27,844 nt of DNA, taken from a virus. The stretch is taken from positions 1-27,844 of the IMG/VR virus record IMGVR_UViG_3300010400_000046; one strand, written 5' to 3'. The translations under genes were made by a program, and so were the position numbers. Shown in pieces: positions 4,169 to 17,937 of this stretch; positions within the stretch are counted from its first letter, which is position 1, and each line of letters starts with the position of its first letter. The notes under the pieces were generated by a model. That model saw only the letters and a program-made list of their open reading frames with translations. It did no database searches and was not told the DNA's origin.

Positions 4169-4428
4169 CTGAATGGATTAGCGTTAAAGATAAGCTGCCT
4201 CAAACAGGCCAAATAGTTGTTGCGTGGCTCCAAGCGCATAATGAGCCCTGTTGTGTTAGGTTTGAAAAAGATTATATTTGGCTAGAGTTAGTCGAAGTAG
4301 ATCGCGAAGACTGCTTCCGCGTTGACCGTGTAACCCACTGGATGCCTTTACCTGAGCCTCCGAACCCCACAATATTTAGAGAGCGCGCTGGTGAATTCGA
4401 GGGTATTCCAGACGAATGCAATTTATGA
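4165..4428 (+). CDS. DUF551-family protein (second copy)
   Basis: 87 residues. It begins MTEWISVKDKLPQTGQ and has VTHWMPLPEPPNP near residues 58-70: the hallmark N-terminal WISV..LP and C-terminal THWMPLPEPP segments of DUF551. An ATGA overlap links it to the gene before, and another links it to the large terminase (TGA 4426-4428 with ATG 4425). It is longer than the copy at 1612-1806 by a C-terminal tail. Family function is not established. Confidence 0.8.
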   Translation: MTEWISVKDKLPQTGQIVVAWLQAHNEPCCVRFEKDYIWLELVEVDREDCFRVDRVTHWMPLPEPPNPTIFRERAGEFEGIPDECNL

Positions 4429-5840
4429 AGCTCTTTAGCCCAAAGCAAATCAAGTCCTATCAAGAATCAGACGCCCGGATTAACATCTGGGAAGGCGCTG
4501 TTCGTTCCGGAAAGACCTTTATTTCGCTTTGGCGGTTCATTAAAGAGCTTAAATTCGGTCCAGAGGGGGAATACGCCCTTATCTGCAAAACATACGACGC
4601 TTTCAAGCGTAATACATTTCCTCAAATGCTTTTGATGATCGGAGGGGACGCTAGACACTATTCGGGCAAAAGGGAGATGCATATTTATGGGAAAGTTGTC
4701 CATATTATTGGTGCTGATGATGAGCGCGCTGAGTCTAAAATTAGGGGTCCCACTTTTTCTGGTGCATATGTGGATGAAGCGACGATTATACCCGAATCTG
4801 TTTTTAAAATGCTTATTAGCCGTTGTGCTATGGGAGGGGCTAAGATATTTGCTACCACTAACCCGGACTCTCCTTACCACTGGTTAAAAAAAGATTTCCT
4901 AGAAAACAATGCTGATGTAAAGTCCTGGCAGTTCAAACTAGAAGACAACCCGGAGCTCACCGATGAGGAGAAGGACTATCTACGTAGACAATACAGAGGC
5001 CTTTGGTTCCAGCGTTTTATTGAAGGAAAGTGGGTTCAGGCTGAAGGAGCAATCTACGATTTTTTTGACCCCAAACTGCACGTCATTGACTATGCGCCAA
5101 ATCTTGCTAAATATTACATTGTCGGTGTTGACTATGGCACTACTAATCCTTGCGCTTTCACTTTGCTTGGCTATAACAGTGATAAGCATCCCAATATTTG
5201 GGTTGAAGATGAGTATTATTTTGACTCAAAGGTACATCAACGGCAAAAGACAGATAGCGAATACGCGGCGGACTTAGCTAAGTTCATTAAAGATAAAGCG
5301 GTTAAGGCGATCTATATCGATCCGAGCGCAGCTTCGTTTCGTGTAGAATGCCAGCGGCAGGGGATAGCTAACTTGTATGAAGCTGAGAATGAAGTGATTG
5401 ATGGCATCAGAAAAGTTGGCGATCTTCTCAATAATGGCACGCTTAAGATCTGCGCAAGATGTACGAATCTTATCAAAGAGTTCCAGTCGTATGTTTGGGA
5501 CTCAAAGAGTATTATGACGGGCGTTGACAAGCCAAAAAAAGAGAATGACCATTGCTTAATAGGGGACTCTCTAGTATGGACGCTAAATGGGAAAATTCCT
5601 ATTAAAGATTTAGTAGGTTTAGAAGGATTAGTTCAGTGTTGGGATTTTAAAAGGAACACCTTTACGTGGGCTAATTTCAAAGATGTTAAGAAGACTCGGG
5701 AGAGGCAAAAGATATTCAAGCTAACTCTTGAGAACGGCCGGTCAATTCAGGCAACAGGTGATCATAAAGTGTGGACGAAGCGTGGATACGTTGAGATACA
5801 AAATCTCTTGAATGATGATGAAGTTCTATGCTATGATTAG
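4416..5840 (+). CDS. terminase large subunit, N-terminal part, fused to split-intein IntN
   Basis: Residues 1-379 are the large terminase, the ATPase and nuclease that packages phage DNA into the prohead. Visible: Walker A at 27-34 (GAVRSGKT), Walker B VDEA with D120-E121, coupling motif TTNP at 147-150, nuclease D239 (GVDYG) and D302 (IDPS). After D378-H379 the chain turns into an intein at C380: block A CLIGDSLVWT, then block B with GRSIQATGDHKVW (T-x-x-H), ending at LNDDEVLCYD and a TAG. The third nuclease Asp and C-terminus are encoded separately at 6373-6696. The ATG at 4425 overlaps the previous TGA (ATGA) and may be the true start. Confidence 0.93.
   Translation: MQFMKLFSPKQIKSYQESDARINIWEGAVRSGKTFISLWRFIKELKFGPEGEYALICKTYDAFKRNTFPQMLLMIGGDARHYSGKREMHIYGKVVHIIGADDERAESKIRGPTFSGAYVDEATIIPESVFKMLISRCAMGGAKIFATTNPDSPYHWLKKDFLENNADVKSWQFKLEDNPELTDEEKDYLRRQYRGLWFQRFIEGKWVQAEGAIYDFFDPKLHVIDYAPNLAKYYIVGVDYGTTNPCAFTLLGYNSDKHPNIWVEDEYYFDSKVHQRQKTDSEYAADLAKFIKDKAVKAIYIDPSAASFRVECQRQGIANLYEAENEVIDGIRKVGDLLNNGTLKICARCTNLIKEFQSYVWDSKSIMTGVDKPKKENDHCLIGDSLVWTLNGKIPIKDLVGLEGLVQCWDFKRNTFTWANFKDVKKTRERQKIFKLTLENGRSIQATGDHKVWTKRGYVEIQNLLNDDEVLCYD
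5553..5837 (+). other. IntN: N-terminal half of a split intein
   Basis: 95 residues from the nucleophile Cys1 to the TAG stop. Intein block A (CLIGDS...) and block B (T-x-x-H with the catalytic His) are intact, and the fragment ends with the LNDDEVL-type strand that usually precedes the endonuclease domain or split point. Its length is typical for IntN. Together with IntC at 6373-6519 it should form a complete HINT splicing domain. Confidence 0.88.
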
Positions 5841-5843
5841 TTC

Positions 5844-6434
5844 ATGGAACATCAAATTCATTTTGGTAAAAAGTTTTATAAAGATCTGAAGACAGGCTAC
5901 TGGATTTCAACGAGCGCTAAAAAGATTAGGGCGCACGTTTGGGTTTGGGAACGCCACAATGGAAGAAGGCCCAAAGGATTTCATGTTCATCATAAAGATG
6001 AAAATAAATCCAATAACGACATTTCTAATTTAGAAATTATTGAAGCTCAAAAGCACATGGCTCTTCATATGTCCGCCCCTGAAAGAAAGCAACAATCTAG
6101 GAAACTAGCCGAGAAGATTAGACCATTAACAAAGGCCTGGCATGCCAGTGAGGATGGGAGAAGGTGGCACAAAGAACAAGGGATCGAAGGGTGGTTAAAA
6201 CGAAAGTCCTTTGTAGGCAAATGTAATCAATGCTCAATGGAGTTTTCCTCCAAAACTTACCATCAAGACTTTTGTTCTAACAAATGTAAAAGTGCTTGGA
6301 GAAGAAAACAGGGTTTTGACAATATTGAATTGATTTGTCCAGTATGTAAAATTACATTTAAAAGGAATAAATATGGAAAACAGAAAACTTGCGGAAGGAC
6401 CTGTGGGGGCTTATTCAAAAGTAAAAAGTATTGA
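5844..6434 (+). CDS. HNH homing endonuclease with two zinc ribbons, inside the split terminase
   Basis: 196 residues. Residues 10-75 form an HNH module: YKDLKTGYW, then IRAHVWVWERHNG, then H49-H50 and the NNDISNL segment ending near N62, with further His at 71 and 75. Two C4 zinc ribbons follow: C127/C130/C144/C148 and C165/C168/C183/C187. Such enzymes cut intein- or intron-less alleles and drive spread of the element. It starts 3 bases after the terminase IntN stop, in the same frame and with no clear Shine-Dalgarno, so re-initiation is likely. Its 3' end overlaps the IntC start by 62 bases in another frame. Confidence 0.9.
   Translation: MEHQIHFGKKFYKDLKTGYWISTSAKKIRAHVWVWERHNGRRPKGFHVHHKDENKSNNDISNLEIIEAQKHMALHMSAPERKQQSRKLAEKIRPLTKAWHASEDGRRWHKEQGIEGWLKRKSFVGKCNQCSMEFSSKTYHQDFCSNKCKSAWRRKQGFDNIELICPVCKITFKRNKYGKQKTCGRTCGGLFKSKKY
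6361..6366 (+). promoter_or_regulatory. ribosome binding site for the IntC-terminase fragment
   Basis: AAAGGA sits 6 bases before the ATG at 6373, inside the coding sequence for the second zinc ribbon of the HNH protein. It decides that the C-terminal terminase piece is an independently translated protein and not only a frameshift remnant. Confidence 0.7.
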
Positions 6435-6519
6435 AGAAGCCGGAGAGGACGATGTCTACTGCCTAAATGTTCCGGCGCATGGGAATTTCGTAGTTAACGA
6501 AGGAATTGTGGTTAAGAAC
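6373..6519 (+). other. IntC: C-terminal half of a split intein
   Basis: 49 residues ending Lys-Asn just before Cys+1. The last 35 (from SKVKSIEE) align by eye with standard IntC sequences; the first 14 (MENRKLAEGPVGAY) are extra and arise from the overlap with the HNH gene. The terminal Asn and the VYCLNV/NFVVNEGIVV blocks are intact. The penultimate residue is Lys where many inteins have His, a known variation. Confidence 0.87.
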
Positions 6520-6696
6520 TGCCTCGATTCCCTGCGCTATGCCATTTATACTCACATGTTTGCAAAAGATGTTAGAGGAATGTCGGCACAGGAATATGAT
6601 CGAATGAGGTCCGAGGCTTTTGGGGGCGAACCGGAACTTCCGGAGTTCTTTAGAGATCCTCGGGATTATGGCAACACTTACATACCTCTTATTTAA
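6373..6696 (+). CDS. split-intein IntC fused to C-terminal part of terminase large subunit
   Basis: 107 residues. Residues 1-49 hold IntC: SKVKSIEEAGEDDVYCLNV (block F) and FVVNEGIVVKN (block G) ending in Asn49. Residue 50 is Cys+1 of the C-extein, which begins CLDSLRYAIYTHMF, the terminal nuclease motif of large terminases (D-H-x-x-D-x-x-R-Y) with the third catalytic Asp at D52. Splicing to the N-terminal piece would give about 437 residues, a normal large terminase length. The frame differs from the upstream parts, but it has its own Shine-Dalgarno and ATG. It ends in TTAA shared with the converging gene. Confidence 0.92.
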   Translation: MENRKLAEGPVGAYSKVKSIEEAGEDDVYCLNVPAHGNFVVNEGIVVKNCLDSLRYAIYTHMFAKDVRGMSAQEYDRMRSEAFGGEPELPEFFRDPRDYGNTYIPLI

Positions 6697-10280: not shown

Positions 10281-10331
10281 GGGTTTTAATATCTCTTTTA
10301 GTTTATAATTCTTCAAATTTTGGAGGATAAT

Positions 10332-10838
10332 TTGGGCAAAAAGAGAAATGGTAAAATATTAAGCTGTAAGTCTTGTTCACAGGAATTTTATGTTCCTAAA
10401 TATAGAATTGAAACAGCAGTTTTTTGCAGCATGAAGTGCATGAACCACTTGCAGTATGAAAAATCGAATCATAAATGCACAAGATGCTTTAAAGAATTCC
10501 TCGATTCTCCCAGCAGGAAAGGACGCAGGCTTTTTTGTACCTTAGTATGTATGCACTCTTTTTTTTCAGAACGTAGTGCAAATGTAAAGGATCGTAGAAG
10601 AAACGCTATAGCGAAACTGAGGGCTGAAGGAAAAGTATCAAATAATGGTCCCGCTATAAGAAAGTGGGTTTTACTTTCCAAAATAAATGAATGCATGATA
10701 TGTGGTTATAATGAGCATATATGTTGTCTGGACATCCATCATATCGATAATGATCCAAATAACAATACTCTAGAAAATATAGGGATATTATGCGTGATGT
10801 GCCACCGAAAGGTGCATCGAAAACTTATAAAGTTATGA
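10332..10838 (+). CDS. HNH endonuclease with two N-terminal zinc ribbons
   Basis: 168 residues from a TTG at 10332 placed five bases after GGAGG (10322-10326); the frame also allows TTG at 10320. Two C4 ribbons come first: C12/C15/C32/C36 and C49/C52/C69/C73. The C-terminal HNH domain has C121/C124, the LDIHHIDNDPNNN segment with H136-H137, then C154/C157 and H158. It is a free-standing mobile (homing-type) endonuclease lying between small Lys-rich genes next to the portal. The ribbon/HNH order is reversed compared with the enzyme at 5844-6434. Confidence 0.88.
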   Translation: MGKKRNGKILSCKSCSQEFYVPKYRIETAVFCSMKCMNHLQYEKSNHKCTRCFKEFLDSPSRKGRRLFCTLVCMHSFFSERSANVKDRRRNAIAKLRAEGKVSNNGPAIRKWVLLSKINECMICGYNEHICCLDIHHIDNDPNNNTLENIGILCVMCHRKVHRKLIKL

Positions 10839-17864: not shown

Positions 17865-17937
17865 TGCTGGCGAAAGGAGTTGAACCCTCAACCGTCCGCT
17901 TACAAGGCGGGTGCTCTGCCAATTGAGCTACGCCAGC
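17865..17937 (-). tRNA. tRNA-Thr(UGU)
   Basis: On the minus strand the 73-base sequence folds as a cloverleaf: 7-base acceptor GCTGGCG/CGCCAGC, D arm GCTC/GAGC with TTGGCA loop, anticodon loop CTTGTAA (anticodon TGT, reading ACA Thr codons), five-base variable loop, and T arm with TTCAACT loop and G-T pairs. Discriminator A is at 17865; CCA is not encoded. It lies 5 bases after one protein gene and 12 bases before the next. Confidence 0.93.

Follow-up and report, generated by a model that had tools for sequence, protein, structure and literature searches.

Gene layout of the terminase locus

The sequence analysed here is IMG/VR virus record IMGVR_UViG_3300010400_000046 (27,844 bases, the whole of which is called the window below), in which the gene for the large terminase (TerL) is spread over separate open reading frames (ORFs) that carry the two halves of an intein and enclose an HNH endonuclease-like gene. 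Three ORFs make up the locus, namely 4416-5840 (474 amino acids, aa), 5844-6434 (196 aa) and 6373-6696 (107 aa), and a P22-like portal gene follows from 7346. An initial annotation made from the letters alone had read them as two terminase proteins, one ending in the N-terminal intein half (IntN) and one beginning with the C-terminal half (IntC), and both the ORFs and the TerL identity of the exteins bear this out. The features are as follows:

4416-5552, + strand: TerL N-extein, residues 1-379, ATPase and most of the nuclease domain, ending in ...KKENDH (terminase profiles; uninterrupted homologues L003-L005 and L013-L020)
5553-5840, + strand: IntN fused to TerL-N, 95 aa, Cys1 ... TGDH block B, TAG stop at 5838-5840 (TIGR01445)
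5844-6434, + strand: HNH homing-endonuclease-like gene, 196 aa, two zinc ribbons, a separate ORF in the frame of IntN (HNH_3)
6362-6375, + strand: AAGGA and ATG start of IntC, within the HNH codons AAT-AAA-TAT-GGA, motif NKYG (from the sequence)
6373-6434, + strand: overlap of 62 nt between HNH (frame 0) and IntC (+1 frame), from the ORF positions; identical phase in 24 of the 31 non-redundant split loci described below
6373-6519, + strand: IntC, 49 aa, ending in ...VVKN, HINT-homologous part from about 6421 (TIGR01443, Intein_splicing)
6520-6696, + strand: TerL C-extein, 58 aa, CLDSLRYAIY..., nuclease catalytic Asp motif, and stop (identity to uninterrupted TerL C-termini)

The two exteins are parts of one conserved protein, and uninterrupted TerL homologues align over the junction. 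TerL-N matched NCBIfam phage_term_2 above its cut-off (2e-38) as well as Pfam Terminase_6N (7e-15) and Terminase_6C (6e-8), and the C-extein shared 74% and 58% identity with the uninterrupted TerL C-termini of L002 and L003, respectively. The HINT homology that the initial annotation expected was recovered in both halves by profile searches: IntN, which begins at residue 380 of the TerL ORF, matched TIGR01445 (5.4e-11) and IntC matched TIGR01443 (2.4e-5), both above the curated cut-offs, with the N- and C-terminal HINT blocks lying on two ORFs as in a naturally split intein. The match of IntC to Intein_splicing (1.8e-6) stayed below its cut-off because this domain is only partly present. In a phmmer search, the solved relatives of IntN were the NrdJ-1 and NpuDnaB inteins.

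The gene between the terminase halves matched HNH_3 (6.9e-16) and encodes two CxxC...CxxxC zinc-ribbon motifs, in agreement with its first description; HH, N, H and the Cys pairs of the HNH catalytic motif and zinc ribbons are invariant in the family alignment, and the profile also matched I-HmuI (1u3e, E 0.002). The ‘fractured gene’ arrangement, in which two intein-half genes flank a free-standing endonuclease gene, was recognised correctly, as the ORF layout has such an ORF at 5844-6434. One correction applies, in that the IntC gene starts inside this HNH gene and overlaps its end.

At the junction, intein-free homologues read ...KPKKENDH/ALDSLRY... without interruption, compared to ENDH/CLIGD...VVKN/CLDSLRY in the window (slashes mark the joints). 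The continuous ENDHALDSLRY in aligned homologous terminases corresponds to the uninterrupted D-H/C-L-D junction that had been foreseen, with Ala in the place of Cys, and the summed extein lengths (379 + 58 = 437 residues) agree with the predicted spliced product of about 437 residues. As judged from this alignment, the insertion is at the catalytic motif of the TerL nuclease domain, outside the ATPase domain; the proposal that the intein sits in the packaging ATPase did not hold.

The splicing residues listed in the initial annotation are all present in the window, with a nucleophile Cys1, the His of block B (TGDH), a C-terminal Asn and a Cys at +1. The case for a split intein at this locus is built on gene anatomy and homology, on the conservation of the splicing residues and of the insertion site, and on the fact that the layout recurs in independent phages, cultured ones included (see below). 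We consider it very probable that the locus encodes a naturally split, trans-spliced intein in the TerL nuclease active-site motif (DH/C-x-D-x-x-R-Y), with a homing HNH endonuclease gene between its halves. Trans-splicing, coupled translation, HNH cleavage and homing are predicted here from the sequence of the window, and the system would work as one operon in which TerL-N-IntN is the first product and the halves are translated separately. The HNH would be translated by re-initiation 3 nt beyond the IntN stop, and IntC-TerL-C from an internal ribosome site in the 3' end of the HNH gene. The two intein halves would associate, fold as a HINT domain and trans-splice to give the 437-residue TerL, while the HNH would cut intein-free TerL alleles at or near the insertion site, so that repair would copy IntN-HNH-IntC in together (homing).

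Several observations weigh against this proposal. The penultimate residue of the window IntC is Lys where His is usual (VVKN/C) and the block-F His is displaced (PAHGNF), which leaves the window without the penultimate His and block-F His usual in split inteins. The Shine-Dalgarno match at the HNH start is weak (-0.6 kcal/mol). Finally, the +1 residue in intein-free homologues is Ala, compared to Cys in the window, and homing must therefore also import the Cys codon. A penultimate His is not strictly defining, as natural inteins without one exist. In the clade to which the window IntC belongs, the block-F His is absent at its usual place and the residue before the final Asn is mostly Lys, the unusual residues being conserved within the clade. 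Members of this clade (window 6421-6519; L044, L045, L046, L073, L074, L079 and L084) have a Cys at block F position 4.

Contiguous and split relatives

Profiles of IntN, IntC and HNH were built from these sequences and 152 loci were scanned, the viral scan covering the best 80 of more than 550 relatives; as the intein and HNH profiles come from the same family, the counts apply to that family. All three parts were found in order at 86 loci (46 contiguous and 40 split, the window being among the latter). Removal of near-copies at 95% HNH identity left 72 non-redundant TerL loci, in which intein and HNH occupy a single nuclease-domain site, 41 of them contiguous, with the HNH out of frame in an unbroken intein, and 31 split, while an HNH in frame with both intein halves was found in none of the 72. 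All N-exteins with a Pfam match were terminases. Across both kinds the splicing residues are kept: Cys1 in 71 of 72 loci, the T/SxxH of block B in 71 of 72, and Cys or Ser at +1 in all 70 that could be parsed. When bacterial genomes were scanned separately, 13 contiguous and 7 split loci were found, the split ones all in Bacillota, and none had the HNH in frame in TerL. In-frame HNH inteins of classical layout, distant from the TerL family, were seen in Rubrobacter and a related actinobacterial bin (L179, L180), where the extein reads as a probable DNA-polymerase-I-like gene; their detection means that the method can see the in-frame state. In two contigs, a second IntN-like (HINT) stretch lies in another gene (L037, 9367-9480; L043, 3276-3389).

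The window is a metagenomic virus record and its HNH is in the frame of IntN save for a single TAG, as would be seen if a normal intein-HNH gene had been broken by a false TAG and a frame change, through assembly or sequencing error or as a decaying pseudogene. However, the layout, the stop, the stop-ATG spacing and the +1 phase of IntC recur in four independent contigs (L044, L045, L073, L074). The split layout is also found in the cultured Lactobacillus phage CL2 (L062), with TerL-IntN at 506-1954, HNH at 1967-2590 and then IntC-TerL-C before the portal gene, and the CL2 record lists no second large terminase besides the split one. These contigs and CL2 exclude an assembly error as the source of the TAG and frame change, which the initial annotation had named as a possible refutation. 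Together with the kept splicing residues and the absence of in-frame HNH genes among the 72 loci, they make error or decay exceedingly improbable. In the CL2 record, TerL as annotated ends prematurely at the IntN stop, and the IntC and TerL C-terminus (2538-2730) are unannotated.

The same conservation bears on whether the two TerL pieces might act as separate chains, with inert HINT halves. There is a precedent for a functional protein split by a homing endonuclease gene, as a ribonucleotide reductase divided in this way is described as working in pieces (Friedrich 2007, as cited in PMC10448857). At the TerL locus, however, unused HINT sequence would decay, whereas nearly all loci of either kind, split or contiguous, keep the splicing residues, and the C-piece has only 58 residues, which include nuclease catalytic residues. 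We regard a gene in pieces without splicing as very improbable.

The translation starts are consistent with separately made halves. The HNH ATG lies 3 nt beyond the IntN stop in the window (TAG-TTC-ATG) and, with so little Shine-Dalgarno match of its own, its translation is likely coupled to that stop. The IntC ATG at 6373 is preceded by AAGGA (6362-6366) and scores -4.9 kcal/mol, and AATAAATATG of the IntC start region recurs in L044, L045, L073 and L046. Median Shine-Dalgarno scores in split loci were -9.7 kcal/mol for HNH starts and -6.9 for IntC starts, compared to -2.2 for control ATGs, and HNH starts beat the control ATGs in contiguous and split kinds alike. Between IntN and IntC, the IntC frame of the window contains seven stops (5887 to 6331), and a single indel would therefore not restore an unbroken intein.

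A single TerL-IntN-HNH-IntC-TerL chain spliced in cis could in principle arise by readthrough of the TAG into the HNH and a +1 frameshift in the 62-nt overlap; IntN and HNH share one frame in the window and in 12 of the 31 non-redundant split loci, and HNH and IntC overlap. This would require two recoding events, however, and the IntN-HNH phase varies among the split relatives (0, 1 and 2), the spacing differs in CL2 and other split loci, and IntC has its own start with AAGGA. We consider such recoding very improbable.

In at least 13 cases, a free-standing HNH gene of the family lies directly downstream of a TerL whose DHxxDxxRY motif is intact, and the family therefore looks dedicated to this target. 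These free-standing copies, and the sporadic occurrence of the family at a single site, are indirect signs of the predicted homing. Such genes near the motif include those of L069, L071, L075, L076, L086, L087, L090, L114, L117, L130 and L144. In Exiguobacterium phage vB_EauM-23 (L064, 2246-3230), an HNH of this family interrupts TerL at the same position; no HINT domain was detected there, and a group I intron was rejected as no Rfam intron match was obtained even at a permissive threshold. A group I intron in the window was likewise rejected for lack of an Rfam match. Elsewhere in the window, a second, different HNH gene (10320-10838) with a TTG start, CxxC motifs on its N-terminal side and weak similarity to the IscB HNH region lies between structural genes, and a tRNA-Thr gene (TGT anticodon; 17865-17937, minus strand) lies within the structural region.

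The hidden HNH frame and a possible origin of the split

In the contiguous loci, about 200 codons are read in two frames. Examples of an out-of-frame HNH hidden in an unbroken TerL intein are L008, L012, L030, L048, L049, L065, L066 and L067. The contiguous kind is present in GenBank phages (Acinetobacter phage Highwayman, Tetrasphaera phage TJE1 and Rhodobacteraceae phage LS06), annotated merely as terminase large subunit. Relative to the HNH, the intein frame is +1 in 39 of the 41 contiguous loci and +2 in the other 2. Stops are several-fold commoner in +2 than in +1 in the free-standing HNH genes, which may explain this bias.

Whether the open intein frame is selected was assessed by recoding each HNH gene synonymously and counting stops in the intein frame. 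Split loci carried 351 stops in the frame joining IntN to IntC, compared to 327-341 expected, and free-standing HNH genes 178, compared to 178 expected, while contiguous loci carried none (by definition), compared to 131-222 expected. To avoid circularity, the count was also made over all 54 non-redundant loci whose IntN and IntC share a phase. Zero stops were found in 41 of these, compared to 1.1 (TerL codon usage) or 3.0 (own usage) such loci expected, and the remaining 13 carried 5 to 36 stops. Such a bimodal distribution, with nothing between, means that selection keeps the frame open in the contiguous kind and not in the split kind; as split loci show no stop avoidance, their halves are really made apart, in the window as well.

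Both frames of the same DNA were modelled for the contiguous locus L012. The HNH-frame model had a mean pLDDT of 91, and its best solved match was I-HmuI (1u3e; Z 8.0, rmsd 10.1 over 111), the next reaching 4.7. In the intein-frame model, confidence was high for residues 1-88 and about 284-317 (mostly pLDDT 83-95), and pLDDT was below 50 for residues 89-283, which are essentially those that overlap the HNH. The intein model has a HINT fold, closest to the NrdJ-1 split intein (Z 17.3, rmsd 1.8 over 126) and gp41-1 (Z 16.8).

Only 2 changes between the contiguous and split labels are required on the intein tree (shuffled mean 23.5), compared to 11-18 on the HNH tree; layout follows the intein lineage, and HNH genes move. 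As HNH genes move between lineages, the HNH tree was rejected as uninformative on direction. Phase was rejected as well: among split loci with HNH-IntC phase 1, IntN and IntC are in register in 8 of 24, as expected by chance, supporting neither direction. Rooted with the Rubrobacter-type outgroup, the intein tree places the split forms within a 47-row group (support 94) inside the contiguous ones. This weakly resolved tree (140 alignment columns, a distant outgroup and many unresolved forks) favours a contiguous state that would have come first and a split state derived from it. The path from split to contiguous is harder, because 5 or more stops must go without benefit until the last.

A possible course is that the split TerL inteins, that of the window among them, go back to unbroken inteins in which the linker also encodes the HNH in another frame, and were split by a stop or frame change after IntN, hidden endonucleases thereby being a cradle of natural split inteins; we hold the case for this descent to be evenly balanced. 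The dual-coding state would let the parasite occupy an essential gene while the protein stays joined in cis. In this state, either a stop or a shift of frame behind IntN would be enough to split the intein at once, because the HNH sequence already offers an IntC start (AAT-AAA-TAT-G of NKY[GA], read in +1). The TerL family bears on how natural split inteins arise, as its close relatives show the HNH in three situations: next to an intact TerL, concealed in another frame of an unbroken intein, and between split halves. Cultured phages represent at least two of these, which makes the steps testable at the bench. The contiguous state is also an apparently undescribed overlap, in which a homing endonuclease shares about 200 codons, in two frames, with an essential phage protein and its intein. 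The family supplies many new split-intein pairs for protein engineering, and the split layout accounts for mis-annotated terminases such as that of phage CL2.

Comparison with known intein and endonuclease systems

Mycobacteriophage TerL inteins have been reported at seven sites, all in the ATPase domain, some with an active endonuclease and with splicing shown (PMC5050341); the nuclease-domain insertion of the window is therefore another site. Similar to AceL-TerL and GOS-TerL, natural split inteins from metagenomes, the window has a split intein in TerL. Unlike these, which are split atypically near the N-terminus with an IntN of 25 and 37 aa (PMC11766414), it has an IntN of 95 aa and the usual split point. 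The contiguous relatives resemble the ShiLan domain and Pacc40, in which an HNH is hidden out of frame in stop-free insertions of phage methylases (PMC11855218), as they carry an out-of-frame HNH in an insertion that is open in the host frame. The ShiLan/Pacc40 insertion is thought to stay in the methylase because no splicing domain is detectable (PMC11855218), whereas the hidden HNH of the TerL relatives lies inside an intein with HINT blocks and kept splicing residues. We found no description of an out-of-frame endonuclease inside an intein in the open-licence literature. I-HmuI (1u3e), which by profile and by model is the best solved relative of the HNH protein, is an HNH homing endonuclease encoded in a group I intron of a phage, whereas no Rfam intron was found in the window.

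The closest known arrangement is that of the ‘fractured gene’ split inteins (gp41-1, NrdJ-1 and IMPDH-1), which Dassa et al. reportedly described in 2009 with a homing endonuclease gene between the halves, in a paper whose title names a new homing endonuclease family. Similar to these, the window has separate IntN and IntC genes on the halves of one essential phage protein with an endonuclease between them, and NrdJ-1 and gp41-1 are the nearest matches to the HINT fold modelled for the unbroken relative L012. Unlike these, the window has TerL as its extein, interrupted at the nuclease site, and an endonuclease of the I-HmuI-like HNH type that carries zinc ribbons, and its IntC starts inside the HNH gene. 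The window is a variant of the known ‘fractured gene’ split intein, and its relatives with a hidden HNH are the more surprising result.

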